From NCBI GenBank assembly GCA_902796875.1, contig CADBQT010000004.1, positions 1 to 10,442 of the forward strand: DNA of 10,442 bases, in the 5' to 3' direction. The stretch's first letter is position 1, and the number at the start of each line of letters is the position of its first letter. Source of the DNA: an uncultured Eubacteriales bacterium (GTDB taxonomy: Bacteria > Bacillota > Clostridia > Peptostreptococcales > Anaerovoracaceae). Position numbers and translations under genes: made by a program. The notes beneath the pieces were generated by a model. The model ran no database searches. It was not told where the DNA came from and saw only the letters and a list, made by a program, of their open reading frames with translations. Below are positions 1,145-9,025 of the stretch, piece by piece.

Positions 1145-2332
1145 ATGACAGCAAAGAGCATGATGCCTTATGTGGAAGGCAATTCCGCCATCCGCGCCAT
1201 GTTTGAAGAGGGGGCCCGCATGGCCGCCCAGTTTGGAAGCGAGAACGTCTACGACTTCAGCCTGGGCAACCCCAGTGTTCCCGCTCCCAAAGAAGTGGAC
1301 CAGGCGATCCGGGACATCCTGGACGAGGAAGATCCCCTGCTGATCCACGGATACAACAAGAGCAACAGCGGATACGAAGATGTGCGTCAGACTGTGGCGG
1401 ACCACCTGAACCGGCTTCACGGAACGGCCTTCACTTCAGAGAATATCCTGATGACCGTAGGCGCCGCCAGCGGTCTGAACATCGCCATGAAGACTTTGCT
1501 GGATCCCGGGGACGAGGTCCTGGCCTTTGCGCCCTACTTCGTGGAATACGGTAACTACGCCAAAAACCACGGAGCCTTCGTCACCGCCATCCCGGCAAAT
1601 CCCCCCACCTTCCAACCGGATCTTGAGGGCCTGGAAAAGGCTATTTCCGAAAAGACCCGGGCGGTCATCATCAACTCTCCCAACAACCCCACCGGCGTCG
1701 TCTATTCCGAGGACACCCTGAAGGAGATGGCGAAGATCCTGACCCGGGGATCTGCGCGGATCGGTCATCCCATTTTCATCATTTCCGATGAGCCCTACCG
1801 GGAGCTGGCATACGACGGAGTCGACGTTCCCTACGTGACCAAGTACTACGCCAACACCATCGTGGGCTATTCCTGGAGCAAGTCCCTCTCCCTTCCCGGA
1901 GAGCGGATCGGCTATCTGGTCATTCCTTCGGAGATCGACGATTTCGAGAACGCCATTCAGGCAGCCAACATCGCCGGACGGGTGCTGGGCTACGTCAACG
2001 CACCCACCCTGATCCAGCGGGTCGCCGCCAGATGCATCGAATGTTCGACGGATATCGATGCCTACGATCGGAACCGCCGGACCATCTACGAGGGTCTGAC
2101 GGAGATCGGTTATGAGTGCACCAAGCCGGAGGGCGCCTTCTATCTCTTCGTCAAGACCCCCATCGAAGACGATGTGGAATTCTGCGCCATGGCGAAGAAG
2201 CATCGCATCCTCATCGTTCCCGGCAGGTCCTTCGCCTGCCCGGGCTATGTGCGCCTGGCCTACAGCGTGGACCACGGGACCATCCAGCGGTCCCTGCCCC
2301 ACTTCAAAGATCTTCTGGCGGAAACGGTATAG
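1145..2332 (+). CDS. PLP-dependent class I/II aminotransferase
   Basis: A 395-residue fold-type I aminotransferase, the usual length of the aspartate/aromatic aminotransferase family. Visible signatures are NNPTG at residues 180-184, the cofactor aspartate in SDEPYRELAYDG (Asp215), the Schiff-base lysine in SWSKSLSLPGERIGY (Lys246), and YVRLAYS near the C-terminus, whose Arg370 should bind the substrate carboxylate. It likely moves an amino group between an amino acid and a 2-oxo acid in the cytoplasm. Its position right behind an arylacetate-CoA ligase suggests aromatic amino acids as substrates: transamination to arylpyruvate, then oxidation to arylacetyl-CoA. That assignment is from context only; aspartate or alanine remain possible. 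The last 29 bp overlap the convergent Uma2 gene. No convincing U-tailed terminator follows; a GGAGGA/TCCTCC pair (2332-2355) lacks a T run. Confidence 0.92.
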   Translation: MTAKSMMPYVEGNSAIRAMFEEGARMAAQFGSENVYDFSLGNPSVPAPKEVDQAIRDILDEEDPLLIHGYNKSNSGYEDVRQTVADHLNRLHGTAFTSENILMTVGAASGLNIAMKTLLDPGDEVLAFAPYFVEYGNYAKNHGAFVTAIPANPPTFQPDLEGLEKAISEKTRAVIINSPNNPTGVVYSEDTLKEMAKILTRGSARIGHPIFIISDEPYRELAYDGVDVPYVTKYYANTIVGYSWSKSLSLPGERIGYLVIPSEIDDFENAIQAANIAGRVLGYVNAPTLIQRVAARCIECSTDIDAYDRNRRTIYEGLTEIGYECTKPEGAFYLFVKTPIEDDVEFCAMAKKHRILIVPGRSFACPGYVRLAYSVDHGTIQRSLPHFKDLLAETV

Positions 2333-3236
2333 GAGGAAGAGGCGGCAGATCCTCCACATTTCTCGACGGCCCCATCCACTCCTGACTTTCGTCGGTCACG
2401 TCCTCCAGTTCGTCCAGTTCGTCCTTGAGCTGGCGAAGATCCAGGGCGCATTCCTCGTTCCATAGTTTGACGGTAATCTCCTCCTGGAAGGAGTAGATCC
2501 TCATGACATCATCTTCGTCGAAGCGATAGGCGATGACCCGCTCGTACTCCAGGTCCACCATCCAATACTCCTTCACCCCGGCTTTACGGTATTTTTCCGA
2601 TTTGATGGTGATGTCCTTTTTTCGCGTGGACGGAGACAGGACTTCGATCACCAGATCGGGGCAGCCCCAAAGGCCCCGCTTTCTCAGTTTATTGTCATCG
2701 CAGGTCACCACCAGGTCCGGCTCCACCAGGGTCCGGTTGTCACAGCCCAGCTGAACGCCGATGGGCAGGAACAGCCGGCAGGGTGCTTTTCTCGCCCGGA
2801 GGAAGGACTTCATCTCGAAATAGAACCAGCCTACGGCCAGCTGATGGCCGTTGAGTGGGGACGCCAGATCGTAGATCACTCCGTCGATCAGTTCACCCCG
2901 CCACTCTTCGGGCATGTCCTCCAGATCTTCCACCGTGTACTCCCCCTGGCGCTTGCTCTTGTAAGCGATAGCGCCGTCTCTCACCGTGCCGTCTTCCCGA
3001 CGGTCGTCGGGATGGAAGTAGTACTCACACTGATTTCCCAAAGGATCCCCGAAGGGATCGTTCTTCTTCGGCGTCAGCACTCCTTCCAGGGCGACCATCG
3101 TCTCGTATCGTGGCGATCTCGTCTGGCCGGCCATGAGTTTCTGCACCGTGCTGAGTGGCAGACCGGCCCGCCGGGCCAACTCCTCATTGGTCAGCTTCAT
3201 CGCCTTTTTCCTCAGTTTCATTTCTTTCAGATCCAT
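2304..3236 (-). CDS. XRE helix-turn-helix / Uma2 family (PD-(D/E)XK-like) protein
   Basis: A 310-residue two-domain protein. Residues about 2-55 form a small XRE-like helix-turn-helix (NEELARRAGLPLSTVQKLMAG). Residues about 100-265 match the Uma2 (DUF820) restriction-endonuclease-like fold: ELIDG around Glu115, VEPDLVV (Asp174), PDLVIEVLSPST (Glu198), KSEKYRKAGVKEYWMVD (Lys212). These are the acidic and lysine positions of a PD-(D/E)XK active site, so nuclease activity is plausible, but the biological role of Uma2 proteins is poorly established. The tail (about 285-310) is acidic, then proline-rich. A longer frame opens at 3314, but ATG 3236 is chosen because AAGGAGA sits 8 bases upstream and because the longer version would cover the promoter. 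The gene is monocistronic, with its own promoter and a terminator just upstream. The HTH may direct autoregulation or target binding; this is inference. Confidence 0.85.
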   Translation of the reverse strand: MDLKEMKLRKKAMKLTNEELARRAGLPLSTVQKLMAGQTRSPRYETMVALEGVLTPKKNDPFGDPLGNQCEYYFHPDDRREDGTVRDGAIAYKSKRQGEYTVEDLEDMPEEWRGELIDGVIYDLASPLNGHQLAVGWFYFEMKSFLRARKAPCRLFLPIGVQLGCDNRTLVEPDLVVTCDDNKLRKRGLWGCPDLVIEVLSPSTRKKDITIKSEKYRKAGVKEYWMVDLEYERVIAYRFDEDDVMRIYSFQEEITVKLWNEECALDLRQLKDELDELEDVTDESQEWMGPSRNVEDLPPLPPIPFPPEDL

Positions 3237-3242
3237 CTCTGT

Positions 3243-3267
3243 CTCTCCTTTCTGCTGGTCGCAGCAG
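3243..3267 (-). promoter_or_regulatory. Hairpin next to the Uma2 ribosome binding site
   Basis: In the leader, CTGCTG (3267-3262) pairs with CAGCAG (3257-3252) across a 4-base loop, ending one base before the AAAGGAG ribosome binding site. The stem does not cover the site itself, so its effect on translation is uncertain. Confidence 0.4.
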
Positions 3268-3285
3268 CCCCTTTTCGCTGGGTTT

Positions 3286-3314
3286 ATTCTATTCCGAACG
3301 GGGCGTTTTGGCAA
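3286..3314 (-). promoter_or_regulatory. Sigma-A promoter of the XRE-Uma2 gene
   Basis: TTGCCA (3314-3309) and TAGAAT (3291-3286) are separated by exactly 17 bp; each matches its consensus hexamer at 5 of 6 positions. The predicted start is near 3279, giving a leader of about 43 nt. The -35 box coincides with a copy of the ATTGCC hexamer that is repeated upstream. Confidence 0.7.
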
Positions 3315-3379
3315 TAAAAAATTGCCCTGCAGGGCAATTTTCTCGGCATTTCTTCGAATAAATTGCCATTATCGGCAAT
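3310..3379. repeat. Repeated ATTGCC-N6-GGCAAT palindromes
   Basis: Two 18-bp elements with identical arms, ATTGCC and GGCAAT, and different 6-bp centres lie at 3321-3338 and 3362-3379. A fifth copy of the hexamer (3310-3315) overlaps the -35 box of the Uma2 promoter. The two palindromes are 41 bp apart. The right one is also followed by TTTATT on the minus strand, so the pair may be tandem terminators. An operator array for the XRE protein is the alternative. Confidence 0.55.
3313..3341 (-). terminator. Intrinsic terminator after the Crp/Fnr gene
   Basis: Bases 3318-3341 form a perfect 24-bp palindrome. Read on the minus strand it is a 10-bp stem around a TGCA loop, and the run TTTTTTATT follows the GC core. 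This is a good rho-independent terminator for the regulator gene that ends at 3390, and it may also act on transcription from the other side. Confidence 0.7.
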
Positions 3380-3389
3380 CGGCGATGGG

Positions 3390-4133
3390 TCAGATGAGCA
3401 GATCCTCCGCCAGGGCGTAGAGCCCTTCGTAGTCGGTGATCCGGATCTTGCCCCGGCCGGTGGCGATGAGGCCGTCATCGATGAACCGGCGGACGATCCT
3501 GGCCACCACTTCCCGTGCGGTGTTGATCTCCTGTGCGATCTGCTCGTGGGTCACCTTGATCTCCGGACAGGATCCTCCCGGCCGATCCGCCGGAGTCATG
3601 CCGGCGCCGGCGCCCTTTCTCTCGGGGATGCACCCCATCTCCTCCGCTGTATTGATGAGGTAGGCGGCGATCCGCTGGTCGATCCCGTAAAAGAGGATCT
3701 GCTGGATCGTCCACATGACATCGGAAAAACGCTCCGTCAGCGTCTCGTAGATGAAGCTGCGGACGAAGATGTTCTCTTCTTTCAGACGTGCCAGTACCGA
3801 TGTGGGGATGATGAGGATCCGGCTCTCCTCCTCGATGATCATCTGGGTGTCGAAGGTGATCTGGTACATGATGCAGGAGGCGGTCAACACGTCGCACTCC
3901 TCTTCCCGGATGTGGTACAGGGTGATCTCCCTTCCTTCCTCGGACATCATGTAGGCCCGCACGGATCCGCTGATGACGGTCACCAGACCCAGGCAGTCCC
4001 CTTCCGTGGCATGAAGGATGTTCCCGACTTCGTAATCCCGGATCACGGCCAGGGCTTCCACCCGTTCTTTTTCATCCGTCGACAGGTGTTTCCAGAAAGG
4101 CAGTTCCCTTAATCTCTCCTTTAATTCGGTCAT
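3390..4133 (-). CDS. Crp/Fnr family transcriptional regulator
   Basis: A 247-residue protein with an N-terminal cyclic-nucleotide-binding-type beta roll (about 20-115), a long dimer helix (about 120-165) and a C-terminal winged helix (about 190-247). The helix-turn-helix is THEQIAQEINTAREVVARIVRRF; Arg207, Glu208 and Arg212 reproduce the R-E-x-x-x-R recognition helix of E. coli CRP, not the E-x-x-S-R of FNR. There is no N-terminal Fe-S cysteine cluster. The phosphate-binding cassette region is replaced by ECDVLTASC (Cys80 and Cys87), so cAMP binding is unlikely and thiol or redox sensing is plausible. A loop of about 20 residues between Cys168 and Cys189 precedes the DNA-binding domain. Start: ATG 4133 has the 9-base Shine-Dalgarno GGAGGTGAT. 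It follows the sulfur-handling fusion gene on the same strand and is its likely regulator (inference from matched promoter sites). Confidence 0.9.
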   Translation of the reverse strand: MTELKERLRELPFWKHLSTDEKERVEALAVIRDYEVGNILHATEGDCLGLVTVISGSVRAYMMSEEGREITLYHIREEECDVLTASCIMYQITFDTQMIIEEESRILIIPTSVLARLKEENIFVRSFIYETLTERFSDVMWTIQQILFYGIDQRIAAYLINTAEEMGCIPERKGAGAGMTPADRPGGSCPEIKVTHEQIAQEINTAREVVARIVRRFIDDGLIATGRGKIRITDYEGLYALAEDLLI

Positions 4134-4137
4134 GAAA

Positions 4138-4173
4138 AATCACCTCCAAGCAGATTGTACTTTGGAGGTGATT
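4138..4173 (-). promoter_or_regulatory. 12-bp inverted repeat over the regulator promoter and ribosome binding site
   Basis: AATCACCTCCAA (4138-4149, plus strand) and TTGGAGGTGATT (4162-4173) are perfect inverted repeats separated by 12 bp. The dyad centre lies in the -10 box. One arm, on the minus strand, contains the Shine-Dalgarno GGAGGTGAT; the other equals its complement. It could be a DNA operator or, in transcripts coming from upstream, an RNA hairpin hiding the ribosome binding site. Confidence 0.75.
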
Positions 4174-4182
4174 CTTTGTCAA
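4154..4182 (-). promoter_or_regulatory. Near-consensus sigma-A promoter of the Crp/Fnr gene
   Basis: TTGACA (4182-4177, 6 of 6) and TACAAT (4159-4154, 5 of 6) are separated by 17 bp. The predicted start is near 4147, the first G of GGAGGTGAT, so the mRNA would begin almost at its Shine-Dalgarno sequence with a leader of about 14 nt. Confidence 0.8.
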
Positions 4183-4186
4183 TGCG

Positions 4187-4225
4187 GCCGGAGCGGCTGA
4201 GGAGGGTGAGTTCAGATGCTCCGGC
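4187..4225 (-). other. Hairpin downstream of the fusion gene
   Basis: GCCGGAGC (4187-4194) and GCTCCGGC (4218-4225) form an 8-bp GC-rich stem with a 23-nt loop holding a further CTGA/TCAG pairing. No T run follows on the minus strand, so termination would be weak and read-through into the regulator gene is expected. Confidence 0.4.
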
Positions 4226-4238
4226 AGAGCAGGCTTCT

Positions 4239-6815
4239 TTAGATGAACAGGTTGACGTTGGACTCTTCGGCCTCGCCCAGGTAGGTGCCGACGCCGCCGA
4301 TCTCCACGCCGTCGATAAGCTCCTCTTCCCGGATCCCCATGACGTCCATGCTCATGGAGCAGGCGATGATCTTCACGCCCATGTCCATGGCCTTCTTCAT
4401 CAGGTCTTCCAGGGAATCGATGTTCTTGTCTTTCATGATCCTCTTCATCATGGCGGTGCCCATGCCGCCCATGTTCATCTTGCTCAGTTTCAGTTTCCCC
4501 GGGCCTCTGGGGAGCATCTTGTCGAACATGCCCTCCATGAAGCTCTTCTTGATGGGAAGCTTCTTGGGCTTACGCAGGGCGGTCAGTCCCCAGAAGGTGA
4601 AGAACATGGTCACCGGCCTTCCCATGGCCAAGGCGCCGTTGGCGATGATGAAGGAGGCCAGGACCTTGTCCATGTCTCCGTCGAAGACGATGATGGTCTT
4701 GCCCTGGGGCGTATCGACTGCCCGGCAGCCTCCCTCCCCTTCCGGGACAAAGGGCACGGTGCCGCCCTGGCTGCCATCCTCTGCCGGCAGGCTCTCCGCC
4801 TGACCCTTGACGATGGTGGCCACGTAATCGGTCCCGGATTTCTCGTTGCCCACAAGAGTGTTCCCTGTCCTGCGGCACCAGGAGACGATGTCCTTGGCGA
4901 ATCCCGGATCGGAGGCGCTCACTTCCAGTACCTCTCCATTGGCCATGTCGTTCATGGTGTTGAAGACTTCCATAATGGGACCGGGGCACTGCATGCCGCA
5001 GCAGTCGAGGGCGATGCGCCGGGCGCCCTCAGGCGCCCCGGTGCTCCCGGCGGGAGCACGGCCGCCGGCGGCGGCTGCATCGCCGGTCCCGGAGCTTCCT
5101 GCAGGCGATGCTCCCGGAGCATCACCGGTCTTCCCGGCTGCCTCTGCCTTTGCAGACTCCAGGTCCCGGTGGATGGATGCGTAGAACCGCACACCACCCG
5201 GGTAGACCTGGACTTTATCGAAACCGTTCTGCATGAGGATCCGGGCCCCATTGTAGGAGCGGACGCCTACCGCGCAGAAGGTGATGTATGTCTTGCTCTT
5301 ATCCAGCTCGTCCAGCCGATCCCTCAGCTGGCCAAGGGGGATGTTCACGGCGCCGGGGATCTCGTAGGCCATCAGCTCCGCTTCCTCCCGCACGTCCAGG
5401 AGCACCGCATCCGGATCCTTGTCGGGAGCATCCCAGTCGCTCAGGGTCATCACGCCCCGCAGGATATTTTCCGCGGTGAAGCCGGCCATATTGACCGGAT
5501 CCTTAGCCGAAGAATAGGGGGGCGCATAGGCCAGCTCCAGATTCTTCAGATCAGCGACGCTGGCCTTCATTCGAAGGGCTGTGCCGATGGTGTCGATCCG
5601 CTTGTCCACTCCCTCGGTGCCCACGATCTGGGCGCCGAAGATCTTGCTTCCGTCCGCTGCAAAGATCAGTTTCAGGATCATGGGCTGGGCGCCGGGATAG
5701 TATCCCGCGTGGGAGTTCTGGGTGATGATCTGGGTCTCGTAGTCTTTGCCTTTGGCCAGGCCCCGCTTCATCAGCGCCTTTTCGTTGCTCCCCGTGGAGG
5801 CCGCCGTCAGATCGAACACCTTGGCCACGGACGACCCTTGGGTCCCCTGATAGGCTTCGTTTCCGCCGGCGATATTGTCCGCCACGATCCGGCCCATCTT
5901 GTTGGCCGGTCCCGCCAGAGGCACCATGGTCTTATCCCCGCTGACGATGTCCGTCACTTCGATGACGTCCCCGGCGGCGTAGATGTCCGGATCCTCCGTC
6001 CGCATGTACTCGTCGGTGACGATCCCGCCCCGTTCGTTCAGGGCAAGGCCGGCGTCTTTGGCGATCCCGCTGTTGGGTCTGACGCCGATGGAGAGGATCA
6101 CCAGATCCGCGGTGACCTTCTCCCCGCTCTTCAGAAGAACGCTTACCTGATCTCCCGTGTCTTCGAAGGCTTCCACTCCGTCGGAGAGGCGCAGGTCCAC
6201 GCCGTTATCTACAATGTTTTCGTGAAGGAGGGCGGCCATCTCCGGATCCAGGGGCGCCATGACCTGATCCATGGCTTCGATCAGGCTGACTTTCAGTCCG
6301 GCGTGCTTCAGGTTCTCCGCCGTCTCGAGACCGATGAACCCTCCGCCGATGACCGCGGCGCTCTTTGCTCCCTGCTCTCTGACCCAGTCCCGGATCTTGT
6401 CCGTATCCGGCACCGTCCAAAGGGTCGTGATCTTATCGGATTCGATCCCGGGAATCGGCGGTTTTAAAGGGGACGACCCCGTGGCGATCACCAGTTTGTC
6501 GTAAGGTTCCCGGTATTCTCTGTTCTCTTCCAGATCCCGGATGACCACTTCCTTGGCCTCCCGGTCGATGGACACCGCCTCGCTCATGGGCCGGACGTCA
6601 ACGTTGAACCGGCTCTCCATGGTCTCCCGCTTGGTGACCAAAAGAGCGTCCCGGGACTTGATCACGTCGCCGATGTGATAGGGCAGTCCGCAGTTGGCGT
6701 AAGAAATGTACGGGCCTCTCTCCAGCAGTACGATCTCCGCCGTCTCATCCAACCGGCGCAGTCTGGCCGCGCAGCTTGCTCCCGCTGCGACTCCTCCGAT
6801 AATGACCGTCTTCAT
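4239..6815 (-). CDS. CoA-disulfide reductase / rhodanese / TusA / DsrE fusion protein
   Basis: An 858-residue cytoplasmic protein with four domains. Residues 1-450 are a CoA-disulfide-reductase-type flavoprotein: FAD site IIGGVAAGASCAARLRR (5-21), active-site Cys42 in YANCGLPY, NAD(P)H site VIGGGFIGLETAE (155-167), second FAD motif IYAAGD (278-283), then a dimerisation domain. Residues about 455-555 are a rhodanese with Cys514 in CAVGVRS. A 45-residue Ala/Gly/Pro/Ser-rich linker (about 555-598) leads to a TusA-like domain (600-670) with CPGP (Cys610), then a DsrE2-type domain (about 705-858) with Cys819 in IIACSMSMD. All four cysteines expected to carry or reduce sulfane sulfur are present. 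Known CoADR-rhodanese proteins reduce CoA persulfides or polysulfide with NAD(P)H; here the product could be relayed along TusA and DsrE. ATG 6815 is chosen because AAGGAGG precedes it; starts at 6839 and 6959 lack this, and the latter would cover the promoter. Confidence 0.93.
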   Translation of the reverse strand: MKTVIIGGVAAGASCAARLRRLDETAEIVLLERGPYISYANCGLPYHIGDVIKSRDALLVTKRETMESRFNVDVRPMSEAVSIDREAKEVVIRDLEENREYREPYDKLVIATGSSPLKPPIPGIESDKITTLWTVPDTDKIRDWVREQGAKSAAVIGGGFIGLETAENLKHAGLKVSLIEAMDQVMAPLDPEMAALLHENIVDNGVDLRLSDGVEAFEDTGDQVSVLLKSGEKVTADLVILSIGVRPNSGIAKDAGLALNERGGIVTDEYMRTEDPDIYAAGDVIEVTDIVSGDKTMVPLAGPANKMGRIVADNIAGGNEAYQGTQGSSVAKVFDLTAASTGSNEKALMKRGLAKGKDYETQIITQNSHAGYYPGAQPMILKLIFAADGSKIFGAQIVGTEGVDKRIDTIGTALRMKASVADLKNLELAYAPPYSSAKDPVNMAGFTAENILRGVMTLSDWDAPDKDPDAVLLDVREEAELMAYEIPGAVNIPLGQLRDRLDELDKSKTYITFCAVGVRSYNGARILMQNGFDKVQVYPGGVRFYASIHRDLESAKAEAAGKTGDAPGASPAGSSGTGDAAAAGGRAPAGSTGAPEGARRIALDCCGMQCPGPIMEVFNTMNDMANGEVLEVSASDPGFAKDIVSWCRRTGNTLVGNEKSGTDYVATIVKGQAESLPAEDGSQGGTVPFVPEGEGGCRAVDTPQGKTIIVFDGDMDKVLASFIIANGALAMGRPVTMFFTFWGLTALRKPKKLPIKKSFMEGMFDKMLPRGPGKLKLSKMNMGGMGTAMMKRIMKDKNIDSLEDLMKKAMDMGVKIIACSMSMDVMGIREEELIDGVEIGGVGTYLGEAEESNVNLFI

Positions 6816-6820
6816 GTTTT

Positions 6821-6827
6821 CCTCCTT
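6821..6827 (-). promoter_or_regulatory. Ribosome binding site that fixes the fusion-gene start
   Basis: AAGGAGG lies 5 bases before ATG 6815. An in-frame ATG eight codons upstream has no comparable site. Confidence 0.8.
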
Positions 6828-6873
6828 GGTATGTTCCATGTTGTTTGTCTCTATGTTTCCCCTCTTGTCTGTT

Positions 6874-6879
6874 ATTTTA
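6874..6879 (-). promoter_or_regulatory. -10 box of the fusion gene, activator-dependent type
   Basis: TAAAAT matches 5 of 6 consensus bases and predicts a start near 6867, with a leader of about 51 nt. The hexamer 17 bp upstream (CGGAAG) is not a -35 box, as expected for a promoter needing an activator at about -41. Confidence 0.55.
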
Positions 6880-6900
6880 TTCACCAAGCCCGGTCTCTTC

Positions 6901-6915
6901 CGTGAGCATGTCACA
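6901..6915. promoter_or_regulatory. CRP-like operator upstream of the fusion gene
   Basis: On the minus strand TGTGA-CATGC-TCACG is a palindrome with one mismatch, centred at 6908, 41 bp upstream of the predicted start. It matches the site before thioredoxin at 13 of 16 positions when one preceding base is included. Confidence 0.65.
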
Positions 6916-6932
6916 CTACCGCAAAATTTTCT

Positions 6933-6966
6933 TCCTAAACCAAAACCGCCGGCTTTCACCGACGGT
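6933..6966 (-). terminator. Intrinsic terminator after thioredoxin
   Basis: On the minus strand ACCGTCGG pairs with CCGGCGGT (one G-U pair) around a TGAAAG loop, followed by TTTTGGTTT. It lies about 50 nt after the thioredoxin stop codon and separates it from the fusion gene. Confidence 0.6.
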
Positions 6967-7015
6967 CCTGGTTCGTTACCATTGTCATTTGTCTTGGAGG
7001 CGTTCCATGACTTGT

Positions 7016-7327
7016 TTATTTCAACATCGCTTCGATGCTTTCTTTCGGCTGTACGCCCATGGTCTGGTTGGCTACCTGACCATCCTTGAAGAGGATCAGG
7101 GTCGGGATGCTCATGATCCCATATCTCTGGGCCAGCTCCGGCTGTTCGTCGACGTTGACCTTGCCGACTTTGACTTTGCCCGCATATTCCTCAGCCAGCT
7201 GTTCTACGGTCGGTGCCAGCATCTGGCACGGTCCGCACCATACAGCCCAGAAGTCGACCAGAACCGGCAGATCCGAATTCATGACTTCCTGTTCAAAATT
7301 GTCTTTCGTAAGTGTGATCTCTGCCAT
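7016..7327 (-). CDS. trxA: Thioredoxin
   Basis: A complete 103-residue single-domain thioredoxin, the standard length. The redox motif WCGPC is at residues 30-34 (within [14 protein letters not shown]), Asp25 is the buried acid of VLVDFWA, and the cis-proline is Pro75 in SIPTLILF. It reduces protein disulfides in the cytoplasm with electrons from thioredoxin reductase, and can also reduce persulfides. ATG 7327 is chosen over an in-frame ATG 33 bases upstream because AAAGGAG lies just before it and the alignment with known thioredoxins begins there. It is on the same strand as the sulfur-handling fusion gene but separated from it by a terminator and a second promoter. Both genes carry the same operator, so they are probably co-regulated and not co-transcribed. 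Confidence 0.96.
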
Positions 7328-7397
7328 GAGAATCGCTCCTTTCTTATCTGTCATTTGCAATCATCTTTATTTGGTGGTGGTGTTCTATGGTGACTGC

Positions 7398-7405
7398 AGT
7401 ATAGC
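7398..7405 (-). promoter_or_regulatory. Extended -10 promoter element of thioredoxin
   Basis: TATACT (7403-7398) is 5 of 6 to consensus and preceded by the extended TGC motif. The predicted start is near 7391. No good -35 box is visible at 17 bp. Confidence 0.55.
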
Positions 7406-7424
7406 ACCCGCCGACCGCCCGTTC

Positions 7425-7439
7425 TGTGAGGAAGTCACA
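7425..7439. promoter_or_regulatory. Perfect CRP-like operator between thioredoxin and the GDSL hydrolase
   Basis: TGTGA-GGAAG-TCACA is a perfect 5-bp inverted repeat with a 5-bp spacer, centred at 7432. It is 41 bp upstream of the predicted thioredoxin start and about 39 bp upstream of the predicted hydrolase start on the other strand. Confidence 0.7.
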
Positions 7440-7442
7440 CAA

Positions 7443-7464
7443 ACCAAAATTTTTTTGGTATGAT
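7443..7464 (+). promoter_or_regulatory. Possible promoter of the GDSL hydrolase
   Basis: TATGAT (7459-7464) has an extended TGG before it and predicts a start near 7471. No clear -35 box is present. ACCAAAA/TTTTGGT (7443-7459) forms an AT-rich inverted repeat that overlaps the element. Confidence 0.4.
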
Positions 7465-7497
7465 ATGAATGACCCTTATAAAGAAAGGAAGAAAACC

Positions 7498-8163
7498 ATG
7501 ACACATAAGACCAAAACCATTCTCTGCTACGGCGATTCCAACACCTTCGGTTTCGACCCGTCCAACTGCCTGCGCTATCCGGAAGATATCCGCTGGCCCG
7601 GCGTCCTCCGGGAGATCCTGGGAGACGGCTACCGTATCATCGAGGAGGGCTGCAACGGACGGACCGTCGCCTACGCGCCTCTGGAGGAATCCTGGAAGGA
7701 CGGCCGCCCCTACCTTAAGGCGTGCTTAAACAGTCACAAGCCCCTGGACGCCATCGTGCTCATGCTGGGGAGCAACGATCTGAAGAAAGAGTTTAACGCC
7801 ACGCCCGAATCCATCGCAAAGGGGATCGGCGAGATGCTCCACACCATGGCGGACTTCCTGGAGGAAAAGCAGGGGAGCGTACCCTACATTCTCGTGGTCT
7901 CCCCGCCGGAGATCAAAGAGGGCGTCTTCTCCGCCGCCTTCGGTCCCGAATTCGACATGGACGGGGTGATCAAATCCAGAGCCCTGGGCGCCGCCATCGA
8001 AATGGCCGCCTTCGAGTATGCCCAGTCCACGGAAAATCCCTGCGGTTTTCTGGATGCCGCCCGGATCGTCCAGCCCTCGGCAGAGGACTCCCTCCATCTG
8101 AGCCCGGAGGGCCACCGGACCCTGGCCAACGCCATCGCCCAGACCCTGAAGGCTTTTCTCTGA
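7498..8163 (+). CDS. SGNH/GDSL family hydrolase
   Basis: A 221-residue cytoplasmic esterase-like protein with no signal peptide. The conserved blocks of the SGNH family are present: GDSN with nucleophile Ser14 (residues 12-15), the oxyanion-hole Gly near EEGCNGR (49-55), GSND (91-94) and the C-terminal D-x-x-H dyad in EDSLHLSPEGH (Asp197, His200). It likely cleaves an ester or acyl group of a small molecule; the family includes arylesterases, thioesterases and acetyl esterases, and nothing here separates these. ATG 7498 follows AAAGGAA and begins the family alignment; the frame upstream (from 7426) would run over the promoter region. The gene stands alone between divergent thioredoxin and convergent ADP-ribosylglycohydrolase, and shares the upstream CRP-like site. 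I see no U-tailed terminator on its own strand. Confidence 0.9.
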   Translation: MTHKTKTILCYGDSNTFGFDPSNCLRYPEDIRWPGVLREILGDGYRIIEEGCNGRTVAYAPLEESWKDGRPYLKACLNSHKPLDAIVLMLGSNDLKKEFNATPESIAKGIGEMLHTMADFLEEKQGSVPYILVVSPPEIKEGVFSAAFGPEFDMDGVIKSRALGAAIEMAAFEYAQSTENPCGFLDAARIVQPSAEDSLHLSPEGHRTLANAIAQTLKAFL

Positions 8164-8168
8164 TCACG

Positions 8169-8196
8169 AAAAAAGAAAACCGCGCCGAAGCGCGGT
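8169..8196 (-). terminator. Intrinsic terminator after the ADP-ribosylglycohydrolase
   Basis: On the minus strand ACCGCGC-TTCG-GCGCGGT is a perfect 7-bp stem with a stable TTCG tetraloop, followed by TTTCTTTTTT. It ends the leftward transcript from 8225. On the plus strand no T run follows the stem. Confidence 0.85.
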
Positions 8197-8224
8197 GTGT
8201 CATTCGATATGAGCTGGCTGCCGA

Positions 8225-9025
8225 TCACCCTTCCATGAAGGTCTCTGCGAATCGCGCAGCCACTTTTTTCATGTCCTCCGGCATGAACTCCTCTGCCTTT
8301 GCGCGAAGCTCCTCCGGCACCCCGAAGAAGGCCTCGGCGATGGACCCGGCGATGGCCGCCTGGGTGTCCGAATCCCCCCCAAAGGCAACGGCCTCCCGGA
8401 TCACATCCTCGTAGGACTCCCCATCCAGGAATGCGATGATGGCTTCCGGCACGGAACCCTGACAGGTCACGTCGAAGGAGTAGTCCGGCCGGATATCCTC
8501 GCAGGTCCGGTGCAGATCGTAGTCGAATTCCTTCTCGATGTAGTCCCGGATCTCTTCCCTGGAAGCTCCGGTCCTGGCCAGGAAGATGGCTGCGGCCACC
8601 GACTCGGCGCCCTTGATCCCTTCCGGATGATCGTGGCTTGGCATGGCAGAGAGCGCCGCCAGTCTCCGGGTTTCTTCCATATTATCCGCTACCCATCCGC
8701 AGGGGGATACCCGCATGGCCGAGCCGTTGCCGAAACTGTAGTAGGCCTCCGATTCCCGCTCATGGAGCCACTGAACGAACCGGCCGCCGTAACCCGCCCG
8801 GGGATAACGCAGGCCCCATGTCTGCATGGACTCCCGGAAGCTTTGGAGGATCTCTTCTTCTCCCGCGTCTTCCTGCATTTCCAACAGGGCTTCCGCCACC
8901 GCCGTCGTCATCACCGAATCATCCGTCACCCGGCAGTCCGGGGCGAACAGTTCAAAATCCTTATCCTTGGTCGGCTGCCACTCGAACCGGCTCCCGACGA
9001 TGTCTCCAATGATCGCTCCGTACAT
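8225..9025 (-). CDS. ADP-ribosylglycohydrolase family protein (DraG/ARH fold)
   Basis: A 266-residue all-helical protein of the ADP-ribosylglycohydrolase family, which removes ADP-ribose from proteins or small molecules using two bound Mg2+ ions. Metal-ligand motifs are visible: TDDSVMT (residues 34-40; Thr34, Asp35, Asp36), GNGSAMRVSP (99-108), SHDHPEGIKGAE (130-141) and GGDSDTQAAIAG (216-227). The start GAIIGDIVGSRFE at the N-terminus is typical, so the protein is complete, and GGAGGAA lies upstream of ATG 9025. It follows the Ltp-repeat gene by 38 bp on the same strand with no clear promoter between, so the two are probably co-transcribed. No ADP-ribosyltransferase partner or macrodomain gene is in the window, so the substrate is unknown; housekeeping or nucleotide-sugar related turnover is as likely as regulation. 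Confidence 0.92.
   Translation of the reverse strand: MYGAIIGDIVGSRFEWQPTKDKDFELFAPDCRVTDDSVMTTAVAEALLEMQEDAGEEEILQSFRESMQTWGLRYPRAGYGGRFVQWLHERESEAYYSFGNGSAMRVSPCGWVADNMEETRRLAALSAMPSHDHPEGIKGAESVAAAIFLARTGASREEIRDYIEKEFDYDLHRTCEDIRPDYSFDVTCQGSVPEAIIAFLDGESYEDVIREAVAFGGDSDTQAAIAGSIAEAFFGVPEELRAKAEEFMPEDMKKVAARFAETFMEG

Follow-up and report, generated by a model that had tools for sequence, protein, structure and literature searches.

CRP/FNR proteins are a textbook case of fixed half-site spacing. In class II activation by these proteins the site lies at about -41.5, overlapping or replacing the -35 element, and CRP of Escherichia coli shows this class II geometry with a site near -41. The heme ligands of CooA are Cys75 and His77, and the Rex consensus has TGTGA and TCACA half-sites in a 6-bp register. 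We know of no DNA site or function assigned to 3DV8, a Crp/Fnr protein of Eubacterium rectale. SdrP (TTHA1359) of Thermus thermophilus, a CRP/FNR activator, likely of class II, which responds to oxidative stress, has the consensus AWTGTRA-N6-TYACAWT, and no binding could be measured with a spacer of 5 or 7 bp; an older, asymmetric consensus, TTGTG-N9-CNC, is cited in the same paper (PMC8465061). The motifs of HcpR given in the accessible sections of PMC1274295 are TGTGA-N6-TCACA, TTGAC-N4-GTCAA and GTAAC-N4-GTTAC, while other motif types in three species are mentioned there without sequence. PgRsp of Porphyromonas gingivalis is described as a heme-binding Crp/Fnr redox-stress regulator modelled on 3DV8 (PMC6955866). 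This paper is the only one in the literature from 2015 on in which we found 3DV8 named, as a modelling template, and the words binding site, palindrom and consensus are absent from its text. The printed CRP/FNR palindromes that we found thus keep a 6-bp register (PMC1274295 and PMC8465061).

The locus considered here lies in a window (the whole stretch of DNA that was analysed) of 10,442 nucleotides, and its palindromes have a 5-bp spacer. The initial annotation had described a TGTGA-N5-TCACA site and a one-mismatch relative as the only two in the window, and a search allowing up to two mismatches returned both coordinates and no others: TGTGAGGAAGTCACA at 7425-7439, with no mismatch, and CGTGAGCATGTCACA at 6901-6915, with one. 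On the minus strand both 15-mers read TGTGAC-N4-TCACR, with a 5-bp spacer, and are followed, after exactly 21 nt, by a -10-like hexamer. The proposed centring of both sites 41 bp upstream, with TATACT and TAAAAT as -10 elements, therefore holds when the hexamer is taken as -12 to -7 (first base = -12), and so does the reported lack of a -35, since the promoter scan gave no -35/-10 pair at the predicted promoter of either trxA or the fusion gene. The features are as follows.

7446..7453, minus strand: A/T tract AAAATTTT, UP-element-like, upstream of the trxA operator
7425..7439, minus strand: predicted operator of trxA, TGTGACTTCCTCACA, 5-bp spacer, centre about -41; layout recurs in loci L032, L033 and L044
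7398..7403, minus strand: predicted -10 of trxA, TATACT, 21 nt past the operator, without a paired -35
7016..7327, minus strand: trxA, thioredoxin, 103 aa (TIGR01068 134.9 bits, cut-off 96.8)
6923..6930, minus strand: A/T tract AAAATTTT, upstream of the operator at 6901-6915
6901..6915, minus strand: predicted operator of the fusion gene, TGTGACATGCTCACG, 5-bp spacer, centre about -41
6874..6879, minus strand: predicted -10 of the fusion gene, TAAAAT, 21 nt past the operator, without a paired -35
4239..6812, minus strand: fusion protein, 857 aa, with CoA-disulfide-reductase-like Pyr_redox_2 and Pyr_redox_dim, rhodanese, TusA and DsrE2-like parts
4154..4182, minus strand: the regulator gene's own sigma-70-type promoter, TTGACA-17-TACAAT, 11/12 matches
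3390..4133, minus strand: Crp/Fnr-family regulator, 247 aa, recognition helix T205-A-R207-E208-V-V-A-R212, cysteines C47 and C87

The fusion protein scores 490.2 bits against TIGR03385, below the cut-off of 578.8, and the promoter-like sites in 3350-8300 number 2, against a shuffle mean of 1.6. Judged from sequence comparison, the two palindromes are very probably operators of the Crp/Fnr protein encoded at 3390-4133, which would be a class II-type activator of thiol and oxidative-stress genes. The number of sites in the window does not bear on this: the count of two is by itself within chance, as 200 shuffles of the window (up to two mismatches) gave a mean of 3.13 matches and 157 of them had two or more, and we dropped it as evidence.

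What the window cannot tell by its own count can be asked of the genome around it. In the assembly (1.39 Mb, 267 contigs, 91.6% complete), exact YGTGA-N5-TCACR is found at three places only, two of which are the window sites, and all three have a -10-like hexamer 21 nt away. The third, on the minus strand at C153:3060 (locus L074), reads TGTGACCTGATCACG, 21 nt, TATACT; downstream of it lie the gene of a 106-aa protein with a CSCC motif and then a desulfoferrodoxin (superoxide reductase) gene, and a flavodoxin gene lies near the site on the other strand. The 106-aa protein (L074:1097-1414, minus strand), first in the superoxide-reductase operon, is without a Pfam match. When one mismatch is allowed, there are 34 places in the whole genome, of which 3 are exact and 31 have one mismatch. 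The reversed pattern has 27, so near this number that the one-mismatch places carry no claim unless a -10 at 20-22 nt is present too. All 34 were inspected for such a hexamer. Among the 31, two have a -10 that starts with T-A and ends with T and a redox gene downstream: C46:2038, with TATGACCTCATCACA, 21 nt and TATACT upstream of ferritin, and C173:4368, with TGTGACCTGGTTACG, 22 nt and TATTCT upstream of a rhodanese gene and a CoA-disulfide-reductase/rhodanese paralogue. Because one-mismatch matches are near control level, we regard these two as candidates only. Another one-mismatch place, on C238, has TAGGAT at 20 nt, and three further passing hexamers, at C209 and C252, begin with C or G. 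Exact TGTGAC-N3-GTCACA is absent from the window's own genome. The initial annotation had proposed that the regulator activates trxA and the fusion gene as a local regulon. The link itself gains support from the conservation, enrichment and co-occurrence reported below and is, on such sequence comparisons, the probable reading; the word local has to go, since the third exact site precedes a superoxide-reductase operon and there are the weaker ferritin and CoA-disulfide-reductase candidates.

The layout is also found in close relatives. One genome of the genus (G020) has two contigs (L032, L033) with the gene order trxA-fusion-regulator, and on each a perfect N5 site, 21 nt and TATAAT precede trxA; in a second (G024, locus L044) the regulator gene directly follows trxA, which is preceded by CGTGACGGCGTCACG, 21 nt and TAGAAT. 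A second site before the fusion gene is absent in G020, where fusion directly follows trxA, and the G024 contig is without the fusion. The suggestion to look for the palindrome upstream of orthologous genes was thus rewarded for trxA, in these two same-genus genomes, and not for the fusion, whose site is not repeated. Given the assembly-wide rarity of the site, the shared 21-nt/-10 layout and its recurrence before orthologous trxA, we take the two window sites to exceed chance. That both are chance palindromes, with trxA and the fusion gene using ordinary promoters, would fit the two window matches against a shuffle mean of 3.13, but the three exact sites in the assembly with their common 21-nt geometry, the site kept before trxA in two relatives and the enrichment of the motif around regulator family loci (see below) leave this explanation barely credible.

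Across the genus (49 genomes), a search that included the -10 gave 17 places, spread over 13 genomes, and the reversed pattern gave 3; part of the 17 are not upstream of redox genes. In genome G002 (89% complete) an N5 site is followed by TATAAT at 21 nt, yet there is no regulator match. In G015 the regulator homologue and the fusion gene are split over two short contigs, with no N5 site there. Six loci (L037-L042) carry the fusion and lack a close regulator homologue in their vicinity; a search of these with up to one mismatch gave no N5 site. The G020 assembly (7% contamination) contains two diverged trxA-fusion-regulator clusters, each with its own perfect operator, which reflects either two strains in one bin or a duplication. 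Elsewhere, trxA and the fusion gene are divergent in L173, and the stretch between them contains two neighbouring N5 operators (L173:3456-3544), each with a -10 of its own 21 nt away.

The residues assigned earlier to the recognition helix of the regulator, Arg207, Glu208 and Arg212, are present. The C-terminal HTH_Crp_2 domain scores 55.9 bits (cut-off 27) and cNMP_binding 20.8 bits, below the Pfam cut-off of 27.5, and the predicted structure (mean pLDDT 84.9, pTM 0.60) matches CRP-fold structures in Foldseek. The best relative both in structure and in sequence is 3DV8 (E 3.7e-40, Foldseek rank 1), which shares cysteines aligned to C47 and C87. Relatives were fetched with an alignment of 16 sequences (relatives 29-72% identical to the window regulator), and the family set consists of 80 loci, the best 80 of 531 relatives, near-copies included. 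Most of these best 80 belong to Clostridia, cultured as well as uncultured (among them Gemmiger, Faecalibacterium, Oscillibacter, Christensenella and Clostridioides), and there are also records labelled Fibrobacter, Treponema and Collinsella; judging by these sequences, the subfamily is widespread, mostly in anaerobic Firmicutes. In the 81 rows formed by the window regulator and the best 80 of 531 relatives, R207, E208 and C87 are present in all 81, C47 in 80 and R212 in 79.

Around the regulator genes of the best 80 of 531 relatives (837,199 bases), TGTGAC-N3-GTCACA with up to one mismatch occurs at 53 sites in 48 loci. The number depends sharply on the spacing: TGTGAC-Nk-GTCACA at k = 0-2 and 4-8 gives 1, 1, 0, 4, 0, 2, 2 and 2 sites in the same set, and the reversed control at k = 3 gives zero in these 837,199 bases. 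In a check that is independent of the motif, every 5-mer dyad with spacers of 0-12 (13,312 dyads) was counted in the 64 loci that remain of the best 80 of 531 once 13 near-copies and the three closest loci (L104-L106) are left out. GTGAC-N3-GTCAC ranks first of the 13,312, in 20/64 loci against 0.28 expected, followed by TGTGA-N5-TCACA and TGACT-N1-AGTCA, and the 6-bp GTGAC-N4-GTCAC comes fourth and far weaker (5/64 loci, 0.28 expected). The putative operator of the subfamily is accordingly written as AATGTGAC-N3-GTCACAGA, in which the CRP half-sites are separated by 5 bp where CRP has 6. The window and family operators are in a GT-N9-AC register, not in the GT-N10-AC register (6-bp spacer) usual for the CRP/FNR superfamily; this counts against a canonical operator and not against superfamily membership, because membership rests on the protein. 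By its sequence, the protein is a member of the CRP/FNR superfamily with a class II-like predicted promoter layout, and its operator register differs.

We searched freely for a -10, on both strands and at offsets of 8-35, around 56 sites (the 53 of the family, the two of the window and that of L074), and the best hexamer lay at 21 nt in 38 and at 20-22 nt in 45 of them. At site 7425 the plus-strand TATGAT (19 nt) outscored TATACT, and the site is scored as a miss because its top hexamer lies on the plus strand. Forty oriented sites, chosen for a -10 at 20-22 nt, have the consensus AATGTGACTTAGTCACAGA, and an A/T tract 8-17 bp upstream recurs in their base frequencies. The flanks of these 40 sites are asymmetric, with GA after the proximal half-site (90%, 72%) and AA before the distal one (68%, 70%), where a palindrome would give TT; a contact with polymerase or with a second protein is a possible cause. 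In a FastTree tree of the 81 rows, the site trait is found in 49, scattered over the whole tree, with 19 changes against about 25 for shuffled labels.

To relate site and regulator at the level of whole genomes, we compared 247 genomes taken from the order, of which 85 have a strong regulator match (E <=1e-60, a cut picked on the match list) and the other 162 include some with weaker Crp-type matches. Exact TGTGAC-N3-GTCACA is found in 23/85 strong-match genomes and 12/162 others (p 4.5e-5), and in 17/78 against 12/162 (p 0.0018) when one genome is kept of the over-represented genus g67. No such association is seen for the 6-bp version, which occurs in 5/85 strong-match genomes and 15/162 others; for the reversed pattern the counts are 3/85 and 9/162. 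The -10 was checked at 30 of the 39 exact N5 places: a -10-like hexamer lies at 20-22 nt in 16/20 places from strong-match genomes and in 1/10 from the others (p 0.0004), or, with the genus collapsed, in 10/14 and 1/10 (p 0.004). The effect is moderate. Exact TGTGAC-N3-GTCACA is missing in 62/85 strong-match genomes, a figure to be read with the test's restriction to exact 12-base sites, which makes it miss degenerate ones; at up to one mismatch, 32/80 loci of the best 80 of 531 relatives have no site within the stretches examined. Together these siteless loci and genomes indicate that many sites are degenerate or absent.

The 12 of 162 genomes with N5 palindromes but no strong Crp match could also suggest that another regulator, inherited together with the Crp/Fnr protein, uses the palindrome as its operator (a repressor of the Rex, Rrf2 or ArsR type, for instance) and that the Crp/Fnr protein binds elsewhere, and the site does cover the expected -35 position, as a repressor site might. 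We nevertheless judge this improbable. GTGA half-sites suit the R-E-x-x-x-R helix, whose R207 and E208 are kept in 81/81 rows and R212 in 79/81; of the 53 sites, 36 are no more than 500 bp from the regulator open frame (best 80 of 531 relatives); an activator would be expected to use just such a -41 spacing with no paired -35; and only one of ten N5 places from genomes without a strong Crp match has the -10-like hexamer at 20-22 nt. For Rex in particular, the consensus has a 6-bp and not a 5-bp register.

With the Crp/Fnr protein as the preferred regulator of these sites, the locus can be set beside the systems described at the outset. It resembles E. coli CRP in its GTGA half-sites, its R-E-x-x-x-R recognition helix and a site predicted to lie near -41, where a -35 would be, and differs from it in a spacer of 5 rather than 6 bp, a cNMP domain below cut-off, conserved cysteines, and stress rather than catabolic genes. 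The regulator is related to the SdrP structure 2zcw (E 1.7e-6), with an operator spacer of 5 bp against the 6 bp of SdrP. HcpR and HcpR2 are likewise CRP/FNR regulators of stress genes and present in Clostridia, but their motifs are one bp longer between the half-sites and their main target is hcp (PMC1274295, PMC12915319). An HcpR reading was rejected, as the family motif is N5 with TGTGAC half-sites and has neither the 6-bp register nor TTGAC or GTAAC half-sites; no hcp match was found among the 21 proteins scanned. A CooA reading was rejected as well, since alignment to 1ft9 puts V82 and T84 of the window regulator at the heme-ligand positions, and the SdrP and Rex readings were set aside on motif register, ligands or targets. 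PgRsp, as described, resembles the window regulator in being a Crp/Fnr protein linked to 3DV8, its modelling template, and differs in binding heme. Six literal spellings of the 5-bp motif, TGTGAN5TCACA, TGTGANNNNNTCACA and TGTGACNNNGTCACA among them, gave no match in the literature searched, outside which lie subscription journals and motifs printed only as logos, and a search for the Lactobacillus FLP motif turned up no spacing. Against the CRP/FNR palindromes that we found in print, the 5-bp operator is short by one bp, and we file it as a differing register because those palindromes keep 6 bp and the literal spellings went unmatched. The spacer had been called unusual, which is right against the printed 6-bp register, although it is a trait of the regulator subfamily rather than an oddity of this locus.

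The genes that follow N5 sites encode thioredoxin, CoA-disulfide-reductase fusions, CcdA/DsbD-type membrane proteins, rubrerythrin, a small protein matching the ferredoxin-thioredoxin-reductase beta chain, a DUF134 protein, a C_GCAxxG_C_C redox protein and a ferredoxin, and in L139 the regulator gene itself stands after such a site. Others do not obviously fit with these: a peptidase M29 gene after the site in L201, with a similar frame in L200, and an ATP-cone protein as the next large frame after the site in L118. A membrane protein with a Fer4_5 domain after the site in L196, and a similar-looking frame in L183, fit poorly or loosely. The theme of thiol and oxygen defence suggests the signal, and the conserved cysteines suggest the sensor. 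At the window promoters, with their predicted -10 at 21 nt and no paired -35 as in the class II layout, a homodimer of the regulator would bind centred near -41 and contact RNA polymerase as a class II activator, so recruiting it to promoters that have no -35, and the upstream A/T tract might serve the polymerase alpha subunit. More tentatively, from conservation alone, C47 and C87 may sense oxidant, disulfide or persulfide stress, and trxA, the persulfide/CoA-disulfide fusion and superoxide reductase might, again more tentatively, be induced together.

The predicted TATGAT at 7459-7464 on the plus strand, 19 nt beyond the trxA operator and before the GDSL-hydrolase gene at 7498-8163, means that this operator may affect both directions. 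It is also what speaks, having outscored TATACT, for a regulator that binds and represses, or for a dual regulator that also affects the divergent hydrolase gene. The trxA-side spacing is, however, the common 21 nt, the lack of a paired -35 at either minus-strand promoter suggests that an activator is needed, and no hydrolase was noticed among the downstream frames that were looked over non-systematically; we hold repression or dual control to be unlikely, to about the same degree as a different regulator.

Activation by the Crp/Fnr protein thus being preferred, we would lean, by a small margin over even chances, towards a broader statement: that a large Crp/Fnr subfamily in gut and rumen anaerobes, with a register one bp shorter than in the published palindromes, acts as a general activator under thiol, persulfide and oxygen stress and senses it through C47 and C87. 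If so, the dimer would have to bring its recognition helices nearer to each other and rotate them by roughly one tenth of a turn of the helix to suit the shorter register, and the 5-bp subfamily would be a natural experiment on the retuning of dimer geometry. One operator would then be predicted to mark thiol and oxygen-defence genes in many bacteria of these two habitats, for example in the Faecalibacterium, Gemmiger and Fibrobacter records.

Two further observations concern the regulator gene of the window. A long inverted repeat, AATCACCTCCAA/TTGGAGGTGATT (4133-4182, minus strand), has the -10 of the gene's own promoter in its loop and the Shine-Dalgarno of the gene in its right arm. A terminator at this place was rejected, as the repeat extends into the start codon and holds the Shine-Dalgarno. 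As predicted from sequence, read-through RNA from the fusion gene could possibly mask this Shine-Dalgarno (z -4.79) while RNA from the gene's own promoter would not, and the repeat might allow the regulator to be expressed independently of its own operon; a visual comparison shows no such repeat before the regulator gene in L044. On its other side, the regulator gene is adjoined by a gene (2304-3314, minus strand) for a Uma2-family (PF05685) protein with an N-terminal HTH_3 domain.
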